A stretch of 64,000 nt of DNA from Pseudoalteromonas sp. MEBiC 03607 (GTDB lineage Bacteria > Pseudomonadota > Gammaproteobacteria > Enterobacterales > Alteromonadaceae). Location: contig NZ_SRRY01000001.1 in NCBI RefSeq assembly GCF_004792295.1, positions 940,501 through 1,004,500 on the forward strand. Reading direction: 5' to 3'. Under the pieces are notes generated by a model that saw only the letters and a program-made list of their open reading frames with translations, was not told the origin of the DNA and did no database searches. The position numbers were made by a program, and so were the translations under genes. Shown here in pieces: positions 13,688 to 32,932 of the stretch. Every line of letters starts with the position of its first letter. Position 1 is the first letter of the stretch.

Positions 13688-14596
13688 ATGAAAGCAGTGA
13701 TTCCAGTTGCGGGCCTTGGTACCCGTATGCTCCCAATGACTAAAGCAATTCCAAAGGAAATGTTACCTTTAGTTGATAAGCCGCTTATTCAATACATTGT
13801 TAATGAATGTGTTTTAGCTGGCATAAAAGAAATTGTGCTAGTTACGCACAGCTCTAAAAACGCTATTGAAAACCATTTTGATACCAGCTTTGAGCTTGAG
13901 GCAACACTTGAAAAGCGTGTTAAACGTACGCTACTTGAAGAAGTGCGCTCAATTTGCCCACCAGATGTAACCATTATGCATGTTCGCCAAGGTGAAGCGA
14001 AAGGCTTGGGCCATGCGGTATTATGCGCAAAACCAATCGTAGGTGATGACGACTTTGTAGTGGTACTGCCAGATGTTATTTTAGATGGCTACACCGCAGA
14101 CCAAAAAACCGAAAACATTGCCGCGATGATCGAGCGTTTTAACGATGTTAAAGCAAGTCAGATTATGCTTGAACCTGTACCACAAGAAAGTGTTCACAAG
14201 TACGGTATTGCTGATATCGGTGGCGTTAAAATTAAAGCCGGCGAAAGCGCACCAATTAAAACGATGGTTGAAAAACCAAAAGCTGAAGAAGCACCATCTA
14301 ATTTAGCGGTTGTTGGCCGTTATGTGTTATCAAAAGCTATTTGGCCGTTACTTGCTAAAACACCTGCTGGTGCGGGTGGCGAAATTCAGTTAACAGATGC
14401 GATTGACGAGCTTATGAAAACTGAGGTTGTTGAGGCGTTCCACATGAGTGGCCGAGCACATGATTGTGGTGATAAGTTAGGTTATTTAAAAGCGATTATA
14501 GAGTACGGTATCCGTGACGAAAAACTAGGCGGTGAGTTCTCTGAGTTTTTAAACGATATTGTTGCGCCTAAAGTGAGTCACTTAAAAGCGGTTTAA
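13688..14596 (+). CDS. galU: UTP-glucose-1-phosphate uridylyltransferase
   Basis: A 302-residue nucleotidyltransferase that makes UDP-glucose from UTP and glucose 1-phosphate. It begins [20 protein letters not shown] with the GxGTRxxPxTK signature; [17 protein letters not shown], then [15 protein letters not shown] near residue 100 and the VEKPK motif follow. Length matches E. coli GalU (302). The ribosome site is AAGGGA. It provides UDP-glucose for ugd directly upstream and for galE at 32962-33975. Repeats occupy the space between ugd and galU, yet gene order and strand are kept. Confidence 0.97.
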
Positions 14597-14622
14597 TTAG
14601 TTTTTGAGTTTCTGAAATATTC

Positions 14623-14653
14623 AAACGCCTACACATTGTGTAGGCGTTTTTGT
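14623..14653 (+). terminator. Rho-independent terminator of galU
   Basis: Perfect 12-bp inverted repeat: AAACGCCTACAC, loop ATT, then GTGTAGGCGTTT, followed by TTGTTT. It begins 27 bases after the galU stop and closes the polysaccharide-precursor block. Confidence 0.93.
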
Positions 14654-14760
14654 TTATTAAATAGCATTTTAAACACAAAGGGGGCGAGGATTACAGATTG
14701 AGATAATTAATAGACTTAAGGTGAATGTGTAGACTCTTTACTAAAGTGATATTTGATACC

Positions 14761-15274
14761 GTAGGTCTGAAATTTATTATGCACGTAAGATCTCTTTTGA
14801 ACCACAGAGGACACAGAGAACACAGAGGTAAATACGGCAAGACTAAAAACTCAGAAAGAGCTGTTTGGTAGTGTTATGTTAGTTTGTGGGATGTTTTGGA
14901 TACCAAAATTTTAAGAGCTTTGAACCACAGAGGGCACAGAGGAAGAGAAAGAGGGTATAAGGTGCTTTATCTTCAGCCCGGTGTTTTATGAGTTTTAGAA
15001 TTAATTTAATTTTCTCTATGTAGCGCCTCGGTGTGCAGTGTTTATGTCTTTAATCTAATTAGAACCGCAGAGGGCATAGATAGCACAGAGGAAGAGAAGG
15101 AGGTCTTTAAGCTTTCAGCCGTTAGGTTTCAGGTAAATTGTGTTGTTTGTGGGTCAGACATTGGTTGATGGAATGGTGTTGTATATAAGACGCACCAAGC
15201 AGGTGTGACGCCTACTGTTTAATATTTTATTTATCCATGTAGCGCGCAGCGCCTCGGCGTGCTCTGTAGTTCAA
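14761..15274. repeat. Type A palindrome arms on the left of the GxxExxY gene
   Basis: This block opens with a degenerate REP-like GTAGGTCTGAAATTTATT element. Type A left arms are at about 14800-14830 (GAACCACAGAGGACACAGAG), 14921-14950 and 15062-15100. Two right arms (TAGCGCCTCGGTGTG near 15020 and AGCGCGCAGCGCCTCGGCGT near 15241) are present. There is one more left arm than right arms. It fills most of the 769-base gap between galU and the next gene. Confidence 0.85.
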
Positions 15275-15365
15275 AAAGTATTTTTCGTATTATTAGTAAG
15301 ATAATTTAAGCTATTCTTAAATTATAAACAGCTTTTAAATGTTCAATATTAGCAAGGATGGCTAT

Positions 15366-15737
15366 ATGGAAATGGATATAATTACCCGTAAAGTAATAGC
15401 GTGTGCTATTGAGGTACATAAACAATTAGGGCCAGGTTTATTAGAGTCTACCTATGAAAGTTGCTTGGTATATGAATTGCTGCAAGTTGGCTTTTCACCA
15501 CTTAACCAAGTTGAGTTACCTATTTCATACAAGAGTGTCTGTTTAGATGCTGGGTATCGACTTGACATATTGCTTCCAAAGTCGCTAATTATCGAATTGA
15601 AAGTAGTAGAAAAGCTTTTACCCATTCACACAGCACAGTTAATTACATATTTAAAATTAACCGACATCAAAACAGGTTTGCTTATTAACTTTAATGTTAC
15701 AAGGTTGGTGGATGGTATTAAGCGAATTCAAGTTTAG
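15366..15737 (+). CDS. GxxExxY protein (PDDEXK-like small nuclease family)
   Basis: Start chosen at ATG 15366 because AAGGA lies seven bases upstream; an in-frame ATG at 15339 has no such site. The 123-residue product carries the family-naming motif in GPGLLESTYESCLVYELL (G-L-L-E-S-T-Y). A PDDEXK-like core follows: RLDILLPKSLIIELK supplies the Asp and the Glu-x-Lys, and KLLPIHTAQLITYLKL is the conserved helix. NFNVTRLVDGIKRI closes the domain. Biochemical function of the family is not established to my knowledge; nuclease activity is inferred from the fold. Type A left arms lie upstream and only right arms downstream, so it may be cargo of that repeat element. No operon partner is seen. Confidence 0.88.
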   Translation: MEMDIITRKVIACAIEVHKQLGPGLLESTYESCLVYELLQVGFSPLNQVELPISYKSVCLDAGYRLDILLPKSLIIELKVVEKLLPIHTAQLITYLKLTDIKTGLLINFNVTRLVDGIKRIQV

Positions 15738-15804
15738 TTTTTCTCTTGGCTTGAAAATTAATTGGAGCCACTGATGTATCAAGGTCAAGCGCCTGCTTAC
15801 TCTG

Positions 15805-16093
15805 AGCTCTCATCACTATATAGTGCGAAGCGCCTCTGTGCTCACTGTGGTTAAAAATTATTCAAACTTAATTACATCATAGGCGCTACAGTTAGCTCCC
15901 TTGTTTAAATTTCTAATTATAACTTTGATTTTCTCTGTGTAGCGCGCAGCGCCTCTGTGTGCTCTGTGGTTCAAAATTATTCAAACCTAATTACATCATA
16001 GGCGCTACAGTTAGCTCCCTTGTTTAAATTTCTAATTATTAACCAGGTTTTCTCTGTGCAGCACGCAGTGCCTCCGCGTACTCTGTGGTTCAA
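15805..16093. repeat. Type A right arms, including a 119-bp tandem duplication
   Basis: Three right arms at about 15823-15852, 15935-15973 and 16055-16091, each ending CTGTGGTT, with no left arm nearby. The second and third belong to a 119-base direct duplication: the same spacer (ATCATAGGCGCTACAGTTAG and flanks) recurs from about 15858 and again from about 15977. The block separates the convergent GxxExxY and MBL genes. Confidence 0.87.
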
Positions 16094-16113
16094 AGTTCAA
16101 TATGTAGGTAAAT

Positions 16114-17523
16114 CTATGTAGCTATTTCAACCTTAGTTTTATCGCCCAGTAGGGCTTGGTATTTTTTAGCCAAAGTTGCTTTGGCTTCGTCATCGCCGTG
16201 TACAATTTTTATTAACTTCGGTTTCTTTTTCATACCTGTTACAAACCTAATTAGTCCCTTTTGATCTGCGTGGGCGCTGTAGCCACTGATGGTATGAACT
16301 GCCGCGTTTATATAAACCTTTTGATTATTAATATATACATAACCGCCTTTTGGGCCGTAGGTTTGAATATCTCTTCCTAGCGTGCCTTTGCCCTGGTAGC
16401 CAACAAAAATAATATCGGTTGTTTTGTCAGGTAAAAACTGCTCAAGGTAATTAACAATTCGCCCCCCTGTGCACATACCGCTGGCAGCTATAATAATCGC
16501 TGGCTGTTGCTTTGAACTTAAAAAGTTAATGAGTGCCTTGTGCTCTTGGTGTGTATCAATTGTATGTAGTTGGTCAAAATCTAACGGGTGACGCCCTTGG
16601 TTAACTCGCTTCTTTGCTTCGTTATCCCATAGGGTTTTAAAGTGTTGGTACTGTGCAGTAAAGTTGGCGGCCATGGGCGAGTCTACAATTACTTGTAGTT
16701 TATGCCACATTGAATTTTTACGAGCTGAGTGAATTATTTGTTCTAGCTCATAAAGTAGCTCTTGCGTTCGGCCAATACTAAACGCAGGAATAAGCACCAC
16801 ACCGTTATCTGTAACGGCTCGTTCTATAATATTTTTTAAACCTTTTACACGCGTTTTTCGGCCATCATGGTTTTTATCACCATAGGTCGATTCTATTACT
16901 AAGGTATCGGCACGGTATGGCGGTTTAGGTGAGGGTAATAATGGCGTATATGGGGCTCCTAAATCTCCCGAGAATACCACTCTGTGATTATTTGGCTTTT
17001 TGCCAAGTTCAATTTCTACATAGGCAGAGCCAAGAATATGGCCTGCGCGTTGTAGGCGGATTTTAAATAAAATTTCTTGGCTTTGGGAGCTCAAGGCTGC
17101 TTTTTCGGGGCTAAAGCCCACTCCTACAGGTATGGAGTACCATTTATTAAAATCTAGACTCACTATTTGCTGTTTTAGTCTTCTTATACAGGTGTTTATT
17201 ATGGCTTCATCACGTGTTACACCTAGTTTTAATGCGTCTTCAATAACGAGTGGTAGTAGTTTTGCGGTTGCTTTAGATGTGTATATTGGTCCTTTAAACC
17301 CTGCCACAAATAGGTAGGGTATGCGGCCTACGTGATCAATATGGCAGTGGGTAACAATAAGCGCTTTTACGGTTGATATGTCAAAGTCGATATTGAGATC
17401 TTCGTGGCTGTCTTCGCCCTGAAACAGCCCGCAATCGATGAGTATTGAGTTGTTGTCGTTAATAACAAGCTGGTGGCAAGACCCTGTAACACCGTTAACT
17501 GCTCCGTGGTGTTTTATTTGCAT
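16114..17523 (-). CDS. MBL-fold/beta-CASP hydrolase, probable RNA-processing nuclease
   Basis: Start taken at ATG 17523 (MQIKHHGAVNGVTGSCHQLV), which has AAGGAT seven bases upstream; an in-frame start at 17559 is less likely. The 469-residue protein has the metallo-beta-lactamase motif THCHIDHVGRIPYL near residue 55. It also has SGDLGAPYTPLLP near 180, ESTYGDKNH, a beta-CASP domain with PAFSIGRTQELLYEL and DSPMAANFTAQY, and the C-terminal RMBL motif SGYSAHADQKGL. This layout is shared by CPSF-73-like and archaeal RNA 3'-end endonucleases and by bacterial homologues of unknown substrate. It is expected to be cytoplasmic and zinc-dependent. It stands alone, flanked on both sides by palindromic repeat blocks. 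Confidence 0.9.
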   Translation of the reverse strand: MQIKHHGAVNGVTGSCHQLVINDNNSILIDCGLFQGEDSHEDLNIDFDISTVKALIVTHCHIDHVGRIPYLFVAGFKGPIYTSKATAKLLPLVIEDALKLGVTRDEAIINTCIRRLKQQIVSLDFNKWYSIPVGVGFSPEKAALSSQSQEILFKIRLQRAGHILGSAYVEIELGKKPNNHRVVFSGDLGAPYTPLLPSPKPPYRADTLVIESTYGDKNHDGRKTRVKGLKNIIERAVTDNGVVLIPAFSIGRTQELLYELEQIIHSARKNSMWHKLQVIVDSPMAANFTAQYQHFKTLWDNEAKKRVNQGRHPLDFDQLHTIDTHQEHKALINFLSSKQQPAIIIAASGMCTGGRIVNYLEQFLPDKTTDIIFVGYQGKGTLGRDIQTYGPKGGYVYINNQKVYINAAVHTISGYSAHADQKGLIRFVTGMKKKPKLIKIVHGDDEAKATLAKKYQALLGDKTKVEIAT

Positions 17524-17681
17524 AATAATATCCTTATTTTTGAAGCATAGCCTCAGCATAGAGGTTATTGACTATAACGGCAACGAGCAAAGTTCTTCAT
17601 GTATTGTTGGATTATTCATAAGCTGTAGGTATTAAGTTTTAAGTCGGATGAGTAAACTCTTATAAAGTCGAATACGATACC

Positions 17682-19307
17682 GTAGGCGTGAAATTTATTT
17701 CGCGCGTGAGATTTTTTTGTACAATTTGCACAAAGAGAAGTGAATGAGAAGAGAATTAGGTAAACCACAAGATTATTTTACTTTCTCTAAAGCGTAACGC
17801 CTTTGTGAGTTAAAGACCTTTTTTTCTAACCACAGAGGTCACAGAGAGCATAGAGGAAGAGAAGGAGAGACCAAACTTTTTTAAATATTGGTTTCTCTGT
17901 GTAGCGCGAAGCGCCTCGGTGCGCTCTGTGGTTCAAATATTGTTTTTACACAATGAGAAGAGAATGAGGTAAACCAAGAACTTACTTAATTTGTGTTCCT
18001 CTAAAGCGAAGCGTCTCATAATCTCGTTGTGATCATTTGTTTTCTCTATGTAGCGCGCAGCGCCTCGGTGTACTCTGTGGTTCAAATATTGTTTTTGCAC
18101 AATGAGAAGTGAATGAGGAAAGAATGAGGAAACCACAAGGTTATTTTCTTTTGAGCGAAGAGAGTTGTAACTAACTGTGAGTTATAGATCTTTTTTCTAA
18201 CCACAGAGGTCACAGAGAGCATAGAGGAAGAGAAGGAGAGACCAAACTTTTTAAATATTGGTTTCTCTATGTAGCGCGAAGCGCCTCGGTGCGCTCTGTG
18301 GTTCAAATATTGTTTAAACGCAATGAAAAGTGAATGAGGAAACCACAAGATTATTTTTTACTTTCTCTAAAGCGAAGCGTCTCATAATCTCGTTGTGATC
18401 ATTTGTTTTCTCTATGCAGCGCGAAGCGCCTCGGTGTTCTCTGTGGTTCAAATATTGTTTTTGCACAATGAGAAGTGAATGAGGAAACCACAAGGTTATT
18501 TTCACTTTCTCTAAAGCGTAACGCCTTTGTGAGTTAAAGACCTTTTTTCTAACCACAGAGGTCACAGAGAGCATAGAGGAAGAGAAGGAGAGACCAAACT
18601 TTTTAAATATTGGTTTCTCTATGTAGCGCGAAGCGCCTCGGTGCGCTCTGTGGTTCAAATATTGTTTAAACACAATGAAAAGTGAATGAGGAAACCACAA
18701 GATTATTTTTTAATTTCTCTAAAGCGTTGCGCCTCTTATTCTCTTTGTGAGTTAAAGATCTTTTTTTTCTGACCACAGAGTCACAGAGAGCATAGAGGAA
18801 GAGAAGGAGAGACCAAACTTTTTAAATATTGGTTTCTCTGTGTAGCGCGAAGCGCCTCGGTGTTCTCTATGGTTCAAATATTGTTTTTACACAATGAGAA
18901 GAAAATGAGGTAAACCAAGAGCTTAGTAATTTGTGTTCCTCTAAAGCGAAGCGTCTCATAATCTCTTTGTGATTATTTGTTTTCTCTGTGTAGCGCGAAG
19001 CGCCTCTGTGTACTCTGTGGTTCAAATATTGTTTTTACACAAAGTGAAGTGAATGAGAAAAGAATGAGGAAACCACAAAATTATTTTCTTTTGAGCGAAG
19101 AGAGTTGTAACTAACTGTGAGTTATAGAACTTTTTATAACCACAGAGGACACAGAGAGCATAGAGGAAGAGAAGGAGAGATCAAACTTTTTAAATATTGG
19201 TTTCTCTATGTAGCGCGAAGCGCCTCGGTGCGCTCTGTGGTTCAAATATTGTTTAAACACAATGAAAAGTGAATAAGGAAACCACAAGATTATTTAGTTT
19301 TCTCTAT
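17682..19307. repeat. 1.6-kb array of alternating type A and type B palindromes
   Basis: Fills the divergent gap between the MBL gene and yjbH. A REP-like GTAGGCGTGAAATTTATTTC starts it. Type A left arms (AACCACAGAGGTCACAGAGA or close variants) occur at about 17829, 18199, 18551, 18772 and 19138. Right arms (GCGCGAAGCGCCTCGGTG type) occur at about 17903, 18055, 18272, 18420, 18627, 18845, 18993 and 19213. Type B units (GAAAAGTGAATGAGG or GAGAAGTGAATGAGG left arms, CTCTAAAGCGAAGCG right arms) sit between them. The usual order is A-left, A-right, B-left, B-right, extra A-right, B. Spacing of A left arms is near 350-370 except for one of 220. I see no credible gene in it. Confidence 0.93.
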
Positions 19308-19423
19308 CATTTAAATTTCATTTTTGTATTAACTTTTTAAACATGAACAACTAACTAATTTAGTTAATTAATGCTATATTGGCGTTAACAAAAAATTCTA
19401 ATAATTCTTCATGGATTCGAGTT

Positions 19424-21511
19424 ATGCTAAAGGCGAACACTTTACTCATTAGCGGGTTAGCAACCCTTTGCGCTCCTGTGCTAGCTTCAGAAAAAATTAA
19501 TAACTATCAATCTTTTACTGGCTATACAGGCCTAATAAATACCCCTAATGCAAATGTAATTGATGTAGGCAATATTGATATTGGTTACAACAACATGCTT
19601 GATCTTAGAGGTAAAGAGTATATTGATGGTCATAACTTCTCTTTTGCTGCAGGTTTATTTGACGGTTTTGAAGTCAGTGGTTTAATTGCTGCCGAATCTA
19701 TGAATGATAATTTATTTCTCGTTAATGAAAAGCAATTGCGAGATGTATCGTTTAACGCTAAATACCAATTACCCTATATACCAAAAGACTGGTTAACTGT
19801 TGCTATTGGTGCAAAAGATATCGGTGGTGCAGCAAATAACTACGAAACTTACTACGCTGTTGCCTCTAAAGAATTGTGGGATTTTAGATTTTCTGCAGGT
19901 TACGCAGTCAGTGATCGTGCTACAGGCCAAATGGATGGCCCTTTTGCTGGTATTGAATGGCAACCATTTGACTGGTTTGCGTTGCAAGCAGAGCATGACG
20001 CTGATGCATTTAATGCAGCCGTAAAAGTCACAGTGCCTAAAAAGTGGTTATACGATATCGGTGAGTTAACATTCACTAGCCGTTTTTATAGTAATACAGA
20101 CTACAGTGAAGAAGACACATCTTGGGGTGTTAACTTCAAAATACCATTATTCACAAAACCTGAGTACGAGGCGATCGAAAGTGCGCCAGAACCAGTGGTA
20201 TCTGAAAGTGATGAACTAGCCTACTTTAAGCTTAACGCTAATAAAGAACCTGTAACTATAAAAGATCCTAACGCACACCGTTATTTCGAAAGCAATAAAG
20301 AAATGACAAGGCAAGCTGCAACGTTAAAGCATGCTTTAGTTAAAGATGGTTTCGAAAGTGTACAAGTGGGCTTTAATAACGATAAGCAAATTGTTGTTAA
20401 GTTTGAAAACTCAACTTTTAATCGTAATGACCTTGATGCAATTGGTTTAGTGCTTGGCCGAATTTCGCAATATGTAAGCAGTGAAGGCATTGAGTTTAAT
20501 GTTTTTATGTCTAAGCAAGATATTCCTCAACTTAGCCTAAAAGGTAACGTAGACGAGTACCGCGAGTTTATTCTTTCGCAAAAGCATCCTGAGGTAGTTG
20601 TTTATCAAGGTGCTATGCCACTACCAAGAGCACTTACTTGGGTTGGTTTAATGAATACTAACTCGCCTTACTTTAAGCCGCGTGTAACTTTTAGCCCTGC
20701 ACTTACGAATGCCTATGCTACTGAATTAGGAGTATATGATTTTTCATTAGCGCTCCGCGCCGATGTAGACATACCTTTATGGCAAGGTGCGGGTATCAAC
20801 CTTGGTGGTCAGGTAAGTGTAGCTAATAGCGACGACTTTGATGAAGATGCAGCATTTAGGTATTACCGTGAAGAATCTGAATTTGATAGAGCGACACTTT
20901 ATCAAACATTCGCATTACCTTACGGCATTTATAACCAAACACAGCTTGGGTATTATAAAGAACGTTTTGATTTTTATGGCATCCAAAACGAAACTACTTG
21001 GCTTAGTCCTGAAGGTCGCCACAAGGTAAGCGCAAATATTGGTTACTTTGACTACCAAGACTACGATGCAAATAGAGATTATCAAACAATAGCCTACCAA
21101 TTTAACTGGGTTGAGCATGATGTTACGTTTCATGCTGAGGTTGGTAAGTTTTGGAATGAAGACTCAGGCATTAAAGTAGAAAGTAGGTTCTGGTTTGGTG
21201 ATAGTTATCTAGCTCTTTATGGCGAAGATACCGATGCAAGAAAAATAGGCTTTGCTTTTAGTATTCCGCTCTCACCACGTAAAGACATGTCAGTAACGCG
21301 TTACGGGCAAGTAAAAGGTACGGAAGCTTGGCGACACTCGATTGGTACACGAATTGGTGAGTCTCAAAATACATTGATTTTTAATCAAGCTTATAAGCCA
21401 GTAAATAGTGTTAGCATCGACCGTAAATATCTGAATCAGGGGCGGTTATCTAAAGCATATTTATATGCTAATTTTAGCCGCTTGAGAGATGTTTACTTAG
21501 AATACAAATAA
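19424..21511 (+). CDS. yjbH: YjbH-like outer-membrane exopolysaccharide protein
   Basis: Start set at ATG 19424 because it gives a clean signal peptide (MLKANTLLISGLATLCAPVL then ASE); the frame can extend to a TTG at 19379. The 695-residue product is close in length to E. coli YjbH (698). It has the family opening SFTGYTGLINTPNANVIDVG, a first beta-barrel region up to about residue 245, a central soluble stretch, and a second barrel region to the C-terminus (LYANFSRLRDVYLEYK). YjbH-type proteins are tied to exopolysaccharide export or surface display; their exact role is unclear. yjbE, F and G are not adjacent here. The 1.6-kb repeat array lies directly upstream, so the promoter must be in the last 110 bases or within the array. 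Confidence 0.87.
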   Translation: MLKANTLLISGLATLCAPVLASEKINNYQSFTGYTGLINTPNANVIDVGNIDIGYNNMLDLRGKEYIDGHNFSFAAGLFDGFEVSGLIAAESMNDNLFLVNEKQLRDVSFNAKYQLPYIPKDWLTVAIGAKDIGGAANNYETYYAVASKELWDFRFSAGYAVSDRATGQMDGPFAGIEWQPFDWFALQAEHDADAFNAAVKVTVPKKWLYDIGELTFTSRFYSNTDYSEEDTSWGVNFKIPLFTKPEYEAIESAPEPVVSESDELAYFKLNANKEPVTIKDPNAHRYFESNKEMTRQAATLKHALVKDGFESVQVGFNNDKQIVVKFENSTFNRNDLDAIGLVLGRISQYVSSEGIEFNVFMSKQDIPQLSLKGNVDEYREFILSQKHPEVVVYQGAMPLPRALTWVGLMNTNSPYFKPRVTFSPALTNAYATELGVYDFSLALRADVDIPLWQGAGINLGGQVSVANSDDFDEDAAFRYYREESEFDRATLYQTFALPYGIYNQTQLGYYKERFDFYGIQNETTWLSPEGRHKVSANIGYFDYQDYDANRDYQTIAYQFNWVEHDVTFHAEVGKFWNEDSGIKVESRFWFGDSYLALYGEDTDARKIGFAFSIPLSPRKDMSVTRYGQVKGTEAWRHSIGTRIGESQNTLIFNQAYKPVNSVSIDRKYLNQGRLSKAYLYANFSRLRDVYLEYK

Positions 21512-21808
21512 TCATTGTTTCTGTTTTAGGAATAAAAAGTTTAAAATCGACAAATTGATTTATTTTTTGTAATTCTAATTGCTGGATTGTAAATATTATC
21601 TATAATTTTTATTGAGCCTTTTTTAGTAAAATAAAGGCTCTTTGTGTAAAATCACAGTTGCAAATGTTGTGATTGTTATTTAACCTATCAGGTAGCAATG
21701 GGAAATTATTAATTATTTTGCTTTCAACTATGGGTTTAGTTGGAGATTTCCCTGTATATCGACCTTATTTGATACGTTTATTTTAAAAAAGGAATAAAAG
21801 GACTCCCT

Positions 21809-23413
21809 ATGTTTACTAACAGAAAAACGCTACTAGCTATGTCTGTAGCATCAGTTTTTGCTCTTTCAGGCTGTTCGAGTGATGACGACAAAAATGAGGT
21901 CGTGCCAGATCCAGTTGTACCACCAGTAACAGAAATCGTTCCACCTGATACAATTGTTACTGAGCAACCAGACAAAATATTTTCAGTAAATGTTATTGAT
22001 GCTACAAACGCTGATGCTCTTGTTGGTGCAATGGTTACTTTCATGGTTGATGGTGAAGCTGCAACAAGCTTAGTGGATCCTAACGGTGAAGAACTTAGCA
22101 TGGTTACTGTTGATGATTCTGGTAACTTTACTTTCCTTCCGAAAGAAGATGCTACAGGCGAAGTAACTGCACAAGTAACTTTTGACGGTTACGTAGGTAA
22201 AAGCTTTGTTGTTGATCTAGACGCTCAAGTTGATGAAGGTTCTAATGACATTCCTCTAAACTTTGCTTTAGTTCCTGCTGACTCTGAAGGTTTAGCTTCA
22301 GCTACAACAGAAGTTGAACTAACAGACGCTACCACGATTGATCCTATCGTTGCTGTTGCTAGTAAAGACGGCGCTAAGTCAGATGTAACAATTCCTGCAG
22401 GCACAACTTTAAAAGACGCAAATGGTGATGCTGTTGCTGGTGGCGCTGTTAAATTAAATGTGTTGGCGGCTGATTCAAGTGTAAGTGGTACTGGTCTTAT
22501 CATTCCTGACGGCTTAAATGAAAACAGCACTACAGAAGTGAAAGAGTCACTTGGCGTAACTAACATCACAATGACTGCTGGTGAGACTAAAGTTAAGCAG
22601 TTTACTCCTGCTATTAATGTATCTGTAACTTTACCTGCTAGCAGTGGTGTAAGTGAAGGCGACATCCTTAACGTATCTTCACACAATGAAGACACTGGTA
22701 TGTGGAAAGATGAGCAATTCAAAGCTACAGTAGGCGCTGCAAATACAGATGGCACTTATCCGGCTAGCTTTATGACTGACCATTTAACATTCTTCTCAAT
22801 GAATCAGAGTGTTCCTGTGTGTAGTGCAGGTGTAACAGTTAAAGTTGTTAGTGGCACCTTACCTGCTCGTGGACTAGCAGTAGTTATGACTTCACCAGAT
22901 GGTTCTATTTCTAGCTACATCAGAAGTACTACTAAACAGGTTCTATCAGGTGCATCGACAGCTCGCTTTGGTATTTCATCTGATGCAGTAGCTAAAGTTC
23001 GTGTATATGATAACGCAGGTAACACTTGGTACGAGCAAGAAAACCAACCAATTTGTGGTGACGTTGAAGTTACACTTAATAATACGGTTGAGACATTCGA
23101 TAGTGCAGTAACTCTTAACGGTGTTTGTGCTGCAGATAATACAGTTAATCCAGATCTTTCTGGCTCTATTGTAACTTATGCAAAAGATGGTAAAGCAGCA
23201 TCATTAGCTCAGGGACAAGGTAATTCAACATTTAGCCTTGCTGGCCTTGAAGCCGGTGGTACCTACAAAGTACGTGCAACAATCCGTGGTGCAAAAGTTG
23301 ATGGTGGTGGTCAATCACAAACATTCACATTTGAGAATGTTCAGAGCACTGACACTCTAACAGGACAAGTTTCTATTGAGTGTGAAGAAAGAGAAGTAAC
23401 AGGTACTAACTAA
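21809..23413 (+). CDS. Large surface lipoprotein with carboxypeptidase-regulatory-like domains
   Basis: A 534-residue secreted protein. The N-terminus MFTNRKTLLAMSVASVFALS ends in the lipobox LSGC (Cys22), followed by SSDDDKN and a Pro/Val-rich linker. Asp at +4 or later does not suggest inner-membrane retention, so outer-membrane anchoring is likely. Residues about 55-140 look like a beta-sandwich regulatory-like domain (VIDATNADALVGAMVTFMVD). A middle region with GVSEGDILNVSSHNEDTGMW and a C-terminal region with two further beta-sandwich-like repeats and paired cysteines follow. No enzyme motif is seen. It lies 297 bases after yjbH on the same strand; no strong promoter was identified in that gap. 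It ends at a clear terminator. Function unknown; a structural or polymer-binding role is a guess. Confidence 0.82.
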   Translation: MFTNRKTLLAMSVASVFALSGCSSDDDKNEVVPDPVVPPVTEIVPPDTIVTEQPDKIFSVNVIDATNADALVGAMVTFMVDGEAATSLVDPNGEELSMVTVDDSGNFTFLPKEDATGEVTAQVTFDGYVGKSFVVDLDAQVDEGSNDIPLNFALVPADSEGLASATTEVELTDATTIDPIVAVASKDGAKSDVTIPAGTTLKDANGDAVAGGAVKLNVLAADSSVSGTGLIIPDGLNENSTTEVKESLGVTNITMTAGETKVKQFTPAINVSVTLPASSGVSEGDILNVSSHNEDTGMWKDEQFKATVGAANTDGTYPASFMTDHLTFFSMNQSVPVCSAGVTVKVVSGTLPARGLAVVMTSPDGSISSYIRSTTKQVLSGASTARFGISSDAVAKVRVYDNAGNTWYEQENQPICGDVEVTLNNTVETFDSAVTLNGVCAADNTVNPDLSGSIVTYAKDGKAASLAQGQGNSTFSLAGLEAGGTYKVRATIRGAKVDGGGQSQTFTFENVQSTDTLTGQVSIECEEREVTGTN

Positions 23414-23618: not shown

Positions 23619-24392
23619 CACAAAGAGAAGTGAGTGAGAAGAGAAAGAGTAAATCCAAAAATACTTTATTTACTTCTATAAGGCTGGGCTTCTGTGAATT
23701 CTATGGTTCAATATGTTTTTAAAAAATTTGCACAAAGAGAAGTGAATGAGAAGAGAATGAGGAAGTGATAATTATGTTTTTTGTTTTCCTCTAAAGCGCA
23801 GCGTCTCTTATCACTCTTTGTGAGTTAAATATCTTTTTTTCTAACCACAGAGGGCACAGAGAGCACAGAGAAAGAGACCAAATCTCTTTGTAAATATTGG
23901 TTTCTCAGTGTAGTGCGAAGCGCCTCGCTGTGCTCTGTGATTCAAATATTGTTTTTACAAGATTTGCACAAAAAGAAGTGAATGAGAAGAGAATGAGGAA
24001 GTGATAATTATGTTTTTTGTTTTCTCTAAAGCGCAGCGCCTCTTATTCTCTTTGTGAGTTAAATATCTTTTTTCTAACCACAGAGGACACAGAGAGCACA
24101 GAGACAGAGAAGGAGAAACCATTATCTCTTTGTTAATATTGGTTTCTCTGTGTAGCGCGAAGCGCCTCTGTGATCTCTGTGGTTCAAATATTGTTTTACA
24201 CAAAGAGAAGTGAATGAGAAGAGAATGAGGTAAACCAATAACTTACTTTATTTGTTTTCCTCTATAGCGCAGCGCCTCTTATTCTCTTTGTGAGTTATAG
24301 ATCTTTTTTCTAACCACAGAGGACACAGAGAGCACAGAGAAAGAGACCAAATCTCTGTGTAAATATTGGTTTCTCTGTGCTCTCTGTGGTTC
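23619..24392. repeat. Mixed type A and type B palindromes
   Basis: Three type B left arms (CACAAAGAGAAGTGAGTG at 23619, then about 23738 and 23967) plus a fourth at about 24199. Type B right arms are near 23792, 24025 and 24262. Type A pairs are near 23845-23945, 24077-24185 and 24315-24392. The last A copy lacks the GCGCGAAGCGC insert in its right arm, so its ends pair directly (CACAGAGGACACAGAG with CTCTGTG). The block occupies the convergent gap between the lipoprotein and the sugar kinase gene. Confidence 0.9.
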
Positions 24393-26708: not shown

Positions 26709-27104
26709 GTAGGAGGTACTTTAGTGCCGAAAATATTTTTACAATGAGATCTGTGGTTAAACATGTTTTTATACGATGTGCACAATGAGAAAAGAATGAG
26801 AAGAGAAAGAGGTAAACCAAGAACTTATTAAATTTTTACTTCAAAGCGCAGCGCCTCTTACCCTCCTTGTGAGCTAAAGATCTTTTTCTAACCACAGAGG
26901 ACATAGAGAGCACAGAGGAAGAGAAAGCGAGACCATAATCTCTTTGTTGATAGTGGTTTCTCTATGTAGCGCGAAGCGCCTCTATGTACTCTGTGGTTCA
27001 AATATTGTTTTTACACAAAGAGAAAATAATGAGAAGAAAATGAGGGAACCACAAGATCATTATTTTACTTCCTCTAAAGCGCAGCGCCTCTTACCCTCTT
27101 TGTT
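26709..27104. repeat. Type A/B palindromes and REP-like element before dciA
   Basis: GTAGGAGGTACTTTAGTGCC starts the block. A remnant A right arm at 26746 is followed by B (26780-26880), a full A pair (26890-27003) and B (about 27012-27104). From 27141 to 27230 two diffuse REP-like fragments follow (TAGGTCGTGCTTTAGCGCGT). The remaining 100 bases before dciA contain its likely promoter, which I cannot place with confidence. Confidence 0.86.
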
Positions 27105-27329: not shown

Positions 27330-27803
27330 ATGGCAAAAGATAGATATGCGCCAAAGGCTCTTGGCGATATTATGGCGGGCTTGAGTGGTCGTTTAGCGTC
27401 TTATGCTGGTAAAACCCAAGGCCTGTCGAGTCAACAAACGATTTTAGACGAGTTTTTAGGTGAAACGCTTTCCAAAAAATGCCGGGTAAGTAATTACCGC
27501 GATGGTACTTTGATGATTGAAGCGGTTTCTGCACCGATTGCACTGCGTTTAAATTATTTAAAAATGGATATGCTCTCGCATTTTCGTGCCGCTGGCATGG
27601 TAGAGCTTGGACAAATTAAAATTACCGCCAACCCACAAGCTACTCAGCGCTTATCTACATCAAAAGAAGCTGAAAAAAAACCGCAATCAAAGCGCCATAT
27701 GAGTGAGCAAACGGCGGACTATTTAACAGCTATTGCTGCTGACGCCCCTCCATCGTTAAAAGAAAAATTAGAGCGCTTAGCCCAACACGGGCGGAAAAAA
27801 TAA
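27330..27803 (+). CDS. dciA: DciA-type replicative helicase loader (DUF721)
   Basis: A 157-residue DUF721 protein. The domain spans about residues 25-100, with ILDEFLGETLSKKCRVSNYR and GTLMIEAVSAPIALRLNYLK, which correspond to the conserved W/F...L.V.v.ssalaqeL pattern of DciA. The C-terminal third is charged and probably disordered, as in other DciA proteins. DciA recruits the DnaB helicase in bacteria lacking DnaC/DnaI. Position just before secA on the same strand is the usual gammaproteobacterial context. A 1.3-kb gap, mostly repeats, separates the two genes here, which is unusually long. Confidence 0.86.
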   Translation: MAKDRYAPKALGDIMAGLSGRLASYAGKTQGLSSQQTILDEFLGETLSKKCRVSNYRDGTLMIEAVSAPIALRLNYLKMDMLSHFRAAGMVELGQIKITANPQATQRLSTSKEAEKKPQSKRHMSEQTADYLTAIAADAPPSLKEKLERLAQHGRKK

Positions 27804-27924
27804 GTAAAGCCATCAGCTTTCAGCCGTCAGTTTTGAGTTGCCCAGCATTGCCTGTTGGTTATGTGTTGATGTGCATGATTCGCGTTTTATGGCATGCGCG
27901 CCAAGCAAGCGTGACGCCTACGTT

Positions 27925-28707
27925 TGATGTAGGCGTGAAATTTATTTCGCGCGTCAGATCTTTCTCACAAAGAGAAGTGAATGAGAAAGGAATGAGGGAA
28001 CCACAGGTCCATTTTTTTACTTTCTCTAAAGCGCAGCGCCTCATAACCTCTTTGTGAGTTAAATATCTTTTTTCTAACCACAGAGGTCACAGAGAGCACA
28101 GAGGAAGCGAGACCATAACCTCTTTGTTGATAGTGGTTTCTCTGTGTAGCGCGAAGCGCCTCGGTGTGCTCTGTGGTTCAAATATTGTTTTTACAATATT
28201 TGCACAAAGAGAAGTGAATGAGAAGAGAATGAGGTAAACCAAGAAATTACCTAATTTATTTTCCTCTAAAGCGCAGCGCCTCATAATCTCTTTATGAATT
28301 AAAGAGCTTTTTTCTAACCACAGAGGTCACAGAGGAAGAGAAAGCGAGACCATAACCTTTTTGTTGATAGTGGTTTCTCTATGTAGCGCGAAGCGCCTCG
28401 GTGTTCTCTGTGGTTCAAATATTGTTTTTACATGATTTGCACATAGAGAAGAGAATGAGAAGAGAGTGAGGTAAACCAATAACTTACTTAATTTTTTTTC
28501 CTCTAAAGCGTAGCGCCTCATAACCTCTTTGTAAGTTAAAGATCCTTTTTTCTAACCACAGAGGTCACAGAGAGCACAGAGGAAGAGAAAGCGAGACAAT
28601 AACCTCTTTGTAAATATTGGTTTCTCTGTGTATCGCGAAGCGCCTCGGTGTTCTCTGTGGTTCAATATGTTTTCCTCTAAAGCGCAGCGCCTCTTATCCT
28701 CTTTGTG
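27925..28707. repeat. Type A/B palindrome block between dciA and secA
   Basis: Starts with GTAGGCGTGAAATTTATTTC, then B (27966-28053), A (28076-28180), B (28199-28293), A (28315-28420), B (28438-28530), A (28553-28662) and a B right arm alone (28673-28707). A and B therefore strictly alternate with a combined period of about 235 bases. Just before it (27894-27920) is a CCAAGCAAGCGTGACGCCTA element also seen near 24430. Confidence 0.92.
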
Positions 28708-28732
28708 AATATTAATTTTCACTTTTGCAGGT

Positions 28733-28755
28733 TTCGCGATATGAAATCGCGCCTA
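28733..28755. repeat. REP-like palindrome
   Basis: CGCGATATGAAATCGCGCCT followed by AC, a relative of the elements at 24463 and 38965. It lies between the repeat block and the secA promoter region. Confidence 0.7.
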
Positions 28756-28916
28756 CAATTGAGCTCCTTTTTTCATCCCTGATCTTGATTTTATTTCAAT
28801 TGTCGCCATATCTACTCAGTGGTCTTGTTTTCACCTTTTTTATGGGGTTAGATCAAAGATTATGGCTGATTTTTAAATTTTCTTGCCGAAATTCCATATC
28901 TTCACACACAGAAGGT

Positions 28917-32321: not shown

Positions 32322-32932
32322 TGTAGGAGGTACTTTAGTGCCGAAAATATTTTCACAAAGAGAAGAGAATGAGGAAGTGATAATTATGTTTTTTGTTTCC
32401 TCTAAAGCGCAGCGCCTCATAACCTCTTTGTGAATTAAAGAGCTTTTTCTAACCACAGAGGACACAGAGAGCACAGAGGAAGAGAAAGCGAGACCATAAT
32501 TGTTGATAGTGGTTTCTCTGTGTAGCGCGAAGCGCCTCGGTGTGCTCTGTGGTTCAATATGTTTTTAAAAAATTTGCACAAAGAGAAGTGAATGAGAAGA
32601 GAATGAGGTAAACCAATAACTTACTTAATTTGTTTTCCTCTAAAGCGCAGCGCCTCTTATCCTCTTTGTGAATTAAAGAGCTTTTTCTAACCACAGAGGA
32701 CACAGAGAGCACAGAGGAAGAGATCAAAATTTCTTAGTAAATATTGGTTTCTCTATGTAGTGCGAAGCGCCTCGGTGTTCTCTGTGGTTCAAATATTTTT
32801 TGCACAAAGAGAAGTGAATGAGAAGAGAATGAGGAAGTGATAATTGTGTTTTTTGTTTCCTCTAAAGCGCAGCGCCTCTTGTCCTCTTTGTGAATTAAAG
32901 ATCTTTTTCTAACCACAGAGGACACAGAGAAC
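32322..32932. repeat. Type A/B palindrome block between mutT and galE
   Basis: GTAGGAGGTACTTTAGTGCC starts it, then B (32354-32435), A (32450-32555), B (32576-32665), A (32691-32795), B (32801-32890) and a final A left arm that is cut off after ACACAGAGAA, 30 bases before the galE stop. The same order, alternation and leading REP-like motif are seen in front of dciA. Confidence 0.92.

Follow-up and report, generated by a model that had tools for sequence, protein, structure and literature searches.

A GxxExxY nuclease gene between inverted palindromic arms: a probable co-inherited selfish unit in Pseudoalteromonas and other bacteria

The nuclease gene and the arms around it

We focus here on a stretch of 64,000 nucleotides from Pseudoalteromonas sp. 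MEBiC 03607 (contig NZ_SRRY01000001.1, positions 940,501 to 1,004,500), which as a whole is called the window throughout, and within it on a gene of the GxxExxY (PDDEXK_3) nuclease family and the palindromic repeats, made of left and right arms, among which this gene lies. The gene occupies positions 15339..15737 on the + strand, with galU on one side, a beta-CASP metallo-beta-lactamase gene on the other and a polysaccharide locus adjoining. It encodes a protein of 132 amino acids that matches both PF13366 (E 3.4e-39, 134.3 bits for a curated cut-off of 22) and TIGR04256 (E 8.2e-41, 139 bits for a curated cut-off of 35), and it is the sole match to PF13366 in the whole genome (two contigs, 4.56 Mb). 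The closest named relative among the best 80 of 584 profile matches is a Pseudoalteromonas sequence with 74% identity. The protein carries a PD-(D/E)XK active site of the QxxxY type, formed by D76, E86-L87-K88, Q100 and Y104, and D76, E86 and K88 are invariant in 21 of 21 and in 39 of 39 aligned GxxExxY sequences. A search of the PDB by sequence with the window protein gave no match; by fold, the best match is 4ic1, which points to the nuclease fold of Cas4 and RecB. No cysteine is invariant in the alignments, and only C42 is nearly so, in A2. As part of the overall explanation developed below, we consider it likely that the protein is a minimal Cas4/RecB-like nuclease.

Upstream of the gene lie three type A left arms, all on the + strand, at 14800..14828 (left arm 1, AACCACAGAGGACACAGAGAACACAGAGG, whose partner does not adjoin it), 14923..14955 and 15063..15103, together with two right arms on the − strand, one at about 15012..15041, which belongs to the second copy and is truncated in the window and complete in the relative G003, and one at 15230..15276, directly upstream of the gene. 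Downstream there are three right arms and no left arm, at 15811..15857, 15930..15976 and 16049..16095, all on the − strand and forming the first, second and third members of a 119-bp tandem series. The count of arms given in a preliminary description of this locus is thus borne out. The same description took one left arm to have its natural partner on the far side of the gene; the window itself does not display such a pair, since a right arm is nearest to the gene on either side and the downstream three are a tandem series, so that left arm 1 can be called no more than a presumptive partner. Clustering of the arms by chance is ruled out by the genome counts, set against reversed patterns, and by the flank tests in other genomes described below: the genome contains CCACAGAGG 42 times and its reversed pattern twice, and an arm motif of 17 set letters, with one mismatch allowed, occurs 60 times, with no occurrence of the reversed control. 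No Rfam family exceeds its gathering score over 14600-19400.

Related genomes show how gene and arms can be arranged. In the sister genome G056 (L020), the gene has tandem right arms on either flank, a 136-bp series with seven members and a 119-bp series with six. In the sister genome G006, two gene-bearing units stand within an array of short units with a common spacer, and in each of them a left arm of degenerate form and a right arm lie in register on the two sides of the gene, which takes the loop position of the short palindrome. In G008, G014 and G047, a complete short copy lies directly upstream of the GxxExxY gene.

Inverted arms beside GxxExxY genes in many phyla

For loci outside the window, we used a profile of 21 sequences, the first of which is the window protein, and took the best 80 named loci of 584 confirmed, a set biased towards close relatives. 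In these 80 loci, the word CACRRAG on the gene strand reaches 7.25/kb in the last 200 bp ahead of the gene, and in the first 200 bp beyond it the complement of this word reaches 7.7/kb, for a background of 0.2-0.5/kb beyond 1 kb. The opposite polarity is also elevated near the gene (1.76 and 1.37/kb), as is the reversed word GAGACAC (0.60/kb upstream and 0.59/kb downstream on the other strand), which is not an independent control because runs such as CACAGAGACACAGAG include it. In a test free of any motif, an inverted pair with a score of at least 14 was found at 53 of 78 loci (two of the 80 were dropped as their flanks were too short) and at 0 of 70 controls. The mean score of a locus's own pair, 17.4, compares with 10.98 as the largest of 10,000 permuted means, and the own right arm ranked first in 27 of the 78 loci and among the top five in 47. 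Polarity is the usual one in 47 of the 53 paired loci.

A larger, merged set comprised 196 loci, of which 20 have no gene by motif search; after identical genes had been merged, 150 remained, 148 of them with scorable flanks. Inverted repeats lie within about 150 bp of 99 of the 133 unique GxxExxY genes outside the genus, and the same test shifted 700 bp outward found 0 of 140 (genus included). In many phyla, such repeats thus stand beside these genes much more often than chance would allow, an outcome in favour of the preliminary description by the test that it had itself set. In a set drawn by profile from the phylum (the best match of each of 30 top-scoring genomes, mostly of one family), 25 of 28 genes have inverted repeats. 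Left and right arms alike read TT(A/C)ACC(A/G)C at the outer end. Three or more arm words are present at 61 of 77 loci of the set used for the protein tree, spread over 12 phylum-level groups, one of these being an archaeal contig from a metagenome-assembled genome. Searches of plasmid and phage records gave 8 of 72,556 for the former and 0 of 50,697 for the latter.

The arm word follows the protein subfamily

The arms are runs of a word of about 9-10 nt, which reads CACnnAGnn, CACAGATnaa or CACGAAAnn according to the nuclease subfamily. Among classed genes, GLLE-type proteins go with CACnnAG arms in 89 of 90 cases and GFLEK-type proteins with CACnGAT arms in 8 of 8, and the other GFLE-type proteins go mostly with CACnnAAA arms (3 of 4). 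Arm class and subfamily agree in 101 of 103 classed genes, a count that excludes 32 further genes of no clear class, and the maximum over 10,000 permutations is 93. The rule also holds between paralogues within G516, G514, G523 and G513; host composition cannot therefore explain the arm word. That the word follows the subfamily strongly implies that the protein recognises its own arms. The GFLEK arm consists of CACAGATGAACACAGAT-type runs (L295, L299, L302, L066 and L072), and runs of this type are commonly met between the genes of many genomes.

The three arm classes require 3 changes on a protein tree of 51 rows, in which the GLLE rows were thinned to every third, compared with 12.2 when shuffled. 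Finer arm variants also cluster by protein (22 changes, compared with 31.2). Phyla require 32 changes on the protein tree of the 77 loci, for a possible minimum of 14 and a shuffled value of 50.2, and are thus more clustered than by chance yet mixed. The mixing fits a putative transfer of the unit between phyla together with its arm type; wrongly binned contigs or paralogues may be another source of it.

The match between arm and protein also bears on the question of which enzyme moves the repeats. Palindromes of this kind could be moved by a Y1 transposase of the RAYT (REP-associated tyrosine transposase, REP standing for repetitive extragenic palindromic sequence) or TIRYT type, with the GxxExxY gene as a passenger. 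Y1_Tnp genes are indeed widespread: 91 of the 108 Pseudoalteromonas genomes have them, as do 20 of the 22 GxxExxY-bearing genomes of other groups. RAYT-like genes between long terminal inverted repeats are described in PMC3733652. A passenger gene, however, would not dictate the arm motif, and the repeats do not keep company with the Y1 genes. In the same genomes, a two-unit motif lies within 500 bp of 0 of 30 Y1 loci (30 of about 110 matches) and of 12 of 30 GxxExxY loci, and the density of arm words is 0.27/kb at the former and 4.44/kb at the latter (30 each). The 17 stretches taken around Y1 genes of the genus contain a single type A arm between them (L332), at a distance of about 3 kb from its Y1 gene. 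Furthermore, G022 and G100 carry repeats with no Y1 gene, and G521 and G522 carry GxxExxY units with none, although these genomes may be incomplete. With 0 of 30 Y1 loci bearing arms, we have rejected the passenger explanation, which we find scarcely credible.

Short gene-less copies and their relation to the gene

Away from the gene, the window contains short type A copies of about 105-120 bp, each consisting of a left arm, a short loop and a right arm, in intergenic positions from 17.8 to 32.9 kb. Single copies, all on the + strand, lie at 17828..17933, 18199..18303, 18551..18655, 19138..19242 and, between an NTP-transferase gene and dciA, at 26890..26998. On the same strand, three copies with other repeats in between occupy 23843..24391, three alternating with type B copies occupy 28076..28662 between dciA and secA, and two copies with a truncated left arm lie downstream of a NUDIX gene at 32451..32923. 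The short copies and the arrays around the gene share the ends AACCACAGAG...CTCTGTGGTT, as the preliminary description would have led one to expect, and gene-less copies with complete ends adjoin unrelated genes. When folded as single-stranded DNA, three window copies in four folds reach z-scores of -4.1 to -4.95 relative to shuffled sequences; the copy at 17828 (z -4.4) folds into a hairpin that bears a GCGC side hairpin, and that at 18199 has a z of -4.95. The side hairpin lies in the right arm of the folded type A copies. A short copy from G006 folds only moderately better than shuffles (z -2.25).

The number of these copies goes with the presence of the gene. At least four matches of the 17-letter motif are found in 11 of 13 gene-bearing and in 9 of 95 gene-less genomes of the genus (Fisher 3e-8, with no correction for kinship), and the reversed control occurs once across all 108 genomes; a stricter arm motif gives 5 of 13 and 8 of 95 (p 0.009, likewise uncorrected). 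The close relatives G019, G055 and G073 lack the gene, and a comparison at two intergenic sites revealed no type A copy in any of them; away from these sites, G055 has one match of the 17-letter motif. In other phyla, short hairpins away from a GxxExxY gene are rare, with 3 in 416 kb and none for the reversed control. The preliminary description had the gene-bearing version as the autonomous form and the short copies as its derivatives. This stands in part: the enrichment of copies in gene-bearing genomes of the genus, the flanking repeats and the common ends are in its favour, and an intact left and right pair at the window gene is not found.

Other repeats share these intergenic regions. Arrays at 17939-18037, 28000-28800, 32390-32930 and elsewhere in the window contain type B copies (CACAAAGAG...GCGCTTCGC...CTCTTTGTG) in alternation with type A. 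The type B right arm has a GCGC core resembling that of type A, and the one type B copy that was folded is no better than shuffles (z -0.72). A further intergenic repeat, GACGCCTACG...TGTAGGCGTGAAATTTATTTCGCGCG, lies at 27803-27970 and recurs in Pseudoalteromonas relatives, whose intergenic regions at the short-copy sites are full of other repeats. Gene order over 13688-23413 also differs from that in G019, G055 and G073, in that the metallo-beta-lactamase gene precedes the yjbH block here and follows it there; repeat arrays lie at these junctions, which suggests rearrangement at repeats.

Paired evolution of the arms at a trp-operon site

In a genus near Mariprofundus, a GxxExxY unit is found between trpD and trpC (L165-L184). 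Of 20 such junctions, 14 are filled, three of them with decayed genes, and six are empty. We compared the arms of 12 of the 14 filled loci, delimited by eye and checked against the DNA, L177 and L184 having been dropped as eroded. Identity between the two arms of a locus is 86.6%, compared with 74.5% between orthologous left arms across species (permutation p 1e-4). L176 and L183, which share a nested hairpin, differ from each other at one site by the same change in both arms; at a second site, the two arms of each locus differ, in opposite ways. The two arms of a unit thus evolve together at one orthologous site, and they are kept matched by selection, by conversion between the arms or by repeated replacement. 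In some species, the trpD stop codon lies at the edge of the arm. The preliminary description had called for empty sites in related strains, and orthologous sites with and without the unit do exist; gain is not distinguishable from loss at them.

A unit at a fixed site, with arms that evolve as a pair and with a place in the trp operon that numerous members of one genus share, is also what one would expect if the arms were an operator, or a hairpin stabilising the mRNA, through which the gene regulates itself. There would then be no mobility, and copies would arise by ordinary duplication, which the tandem arrays indeed reveal, and by horizontal transfer. In line with this, no excess of target-site duplication was found at any length from 2 to 9 (n=35 loci with a clear pair). 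Autoregulation does not, however, explain why dispersed copies are enriched in gene-bearing genomes, nor does it sit well with gene-less copies that have complete ends and stand beside unrelated genes, if rarely in other phyla (the 3 in 416 kb given above), or with arm variants that cluster on a protein tree whose phyla are mixed. We consider this explanation unlikely.

Exchange between species and the age of copies

The segment 14600..15752, which holds the left repeats and the gene, is an island of about 99% identity to the relative G003, compared with 89.9% in galU and 85.5% in the metallo-beta-lactamase gene. Over 14660-15737, 10 of 1077 sites differ, and identity drops sharply past 15752, 15 bp beyond the stop codon. 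The segment of left repeats and gene has thus been exchanged recently between species, and homologous recombination in the shared flanking genes could be the origin of the island. Relative to G056, the noncoding DNA around left arm 1 (14651-14950) is 97-99% identical, and galU and the gene 81-93%.

Most of the 22 genomes searched have several GxxExxY genes at different places. Younger paralogues include one pair in G511 (78%) and three loci in G512 (75-81% over long stretches). In G512, L272 and L287 share 96% identity over 589 bp, between ends GCCGAAC...GTTCGGC that resemble attC (recognised by eye). We rejected this pair as proof of transposition, as its ends look like integron attC sites.

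An island with so sharp a boundary recalls gene conversion, and homing offers a further explanation: the nuclease would cut alleles that lack the unit, which would be copied in by homologous repair, the arms being remnants of recognition or a protection and the short copies relics of failed repair. The PD-(D/E)XK fold, the island ending 15 bp past the stop codon, the orthologous sites both filled and empty and the missing target duplication all agree with homing. The island may, on the other hand, be plain homologous recombination between shared flanking genes; the arms belong to the unit and not to the target, and most of the 22 genomes searched have the gene at several places, which speaks against homing. 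Homing appears very unlikely to us.

A candidate selfish unit

The observations to be brought together are the unit of gene and arms, the match of motif and subfamily, the paired arms, the association of gene and palindromes, the gene at the loop position, the exchange between species and the conserved active site. We consider it probable that the GxxExxY gene is inherited together with its inverted arms as a single selfish unit of the REP/RAYT kind, whose protein recognises its own arms and has multiplied the short palindromes. In such a unit, recognition would most likely take place in single-stranded DNA, where the pair of arms folds into a hairpin, with the side hairpin of the right arm giving direction. 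The nuclease would nick at the arms, and repair or template switching at the nick would copy short palindromes elsewhere; the same process would even out the arms and so keep the pair matched. The gene-less arms would then be short palindromes multiplied round the Pseudoalteromonas chromosome, similarly to REPs beside RAYT genes.

Several findings weigh against the selfish unit or limit it. First of all, the window's own genus provides a poor example: both arms nearest the window gene are right arms and local pairing is not clean, arm clusters lie within 1.5 kb at 10 of 16 genus gene loci and at none of the other 6, and only 1 of 15 unique Pseudoalteromonas genes passes the strict close-arm test, for which reason the genus looks eroded or rearranged. 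In G015 (L018), a short copy encloses the gene, which has two similar sequences of about 19 nt (aataacttctctgtgtagc and aattactcctcggtgtagt) at its sides, an arrangement that could be a late insertion. Second, 34 of the 133 unique genes outside the genus fail the close-arm test, and among the 53 paired loci two have the opposite polarity and four have no clear word. Third, the gene-less genomes G067 and G100 carry 27 and 15 motif matches, although many copies in such genomes are expected after gene loss or from another source. Fourth, paralogues within a genome are mostly old, their aligned parts being about 56-69% identical as DNA, the attC-like ends suggest that an integron may have moved the near-identical G512 pair, and the trpC tree, built for 13 of the 20 loci, does not order empty and filled sites as gain or loss. 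Finally, the lack of target duplication, the mostly old copies and the shared residence at one site in many species together speak against simple transposition.

Whether the unit represents a new class of mobile element is a proposition that we regard as evenly balanced. In such a class, a lone Cas4/RecB-type nuclease would recognise hairpins built from its own 9-10 nt repeats and, by nicking and templated copying, would spread both its own gene and palindromes that lack it, no transposase of a known type taking part; the class would range over many phyla of bacteria and include at least one contig of an archaeon. If the nuclease moves the repeats, the element would be of a new kind, with an enzyme outside the DDE, HUH, tyrosine and serine recombinase classes. 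To our knowledge, no other mobile element depends on a single PD-(D/E)XK nuclease together with arms of this kind, and the mobility of the unit is presumptive. Among the matches listed in a search of open-access full texts, a scope that leaves preprints and most subscription papers outside, no report links GxxExxY, PDDEXK_3, PF13366 or TIGR04256 with repeats; in PMC8934634, GxxExxY figures as a neighbour of a reverse transcriptase. GxxExxY, a large family with no known function, gains a defined DNA partner and a code linking protein subfamily and repeat. If the proposal is true, a class of intergenic palindromes would likewise be accounted for, and the CACAGAG, CACGAAG and CACAGATGAA repeats of many genomes would have a source.

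Comparison with known systems

The unit shares features with several known systems. With Cas4 and RecB, it has in common the fold, for which 4ic1 is the best match, and the D, E-x-K and QxxxY residues that make up the nuclease motif of these proteins. Cas4 has four conserved cysteines for an iron-sulphur cluster; GxxExxY proteins, of about 130 amino acids, lack this set. As in miniature inverted-repeat transposable elements and their parent insertion sequences, terminal inverted repeats are present and short gene-less copies share their ends with the gene-bearing unit, whereas target-site duplication is not found (n=35) and the gene is not a known transposase. TIRtrons, or TIRYT elements, likewise have a nuclease gene between long terminal inverted repeats and possibly repeat families, as described in PMC3733652; their enzyme is a tyrosine transposase, and the words CACAGAG and CACGAAG are absent from the main text of that source.

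The closest parallel is with REP/RAYT systems (REPtrons and bacterial interspersed mosaic elements), in which a nuclease gene also lies between inverted palindromes, gene-less copies are dispersed and the repeats form arrays. RAYT genes are flanked by inverted REPs, coevolve with them and correlate with their number, according to Nunvar et al. 2010 (PMC2817692). All of these features have counterparts here, so that the comparison drawn in the preliminary description is apt: flanking inverted copies (99/133, and 1/15 in the window's own genus), dispersed gene-less copies, a correlation of gene and copy number (11/13 and 9/95, uncorrected for kinship) and coevolution of protein and repeat (101/103). 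The differences lie in the arms, which are runs of a 9-10 nt word, in the range, which takes in many phyla and one archaeal contig, and above all in the enzyme, since RAYT is a tyrosine transposase related to IS200/IS605 and the protein described here appears to be a PD-(D/E)XK nuclease of the Cas4/RecB kind. Because the two nucleases are unrelated, the likeness is one of way of life and not of descent, and if the unit is what we propose, the REP/RAYT arrangement would have been invented independently and would have arisen more than once.
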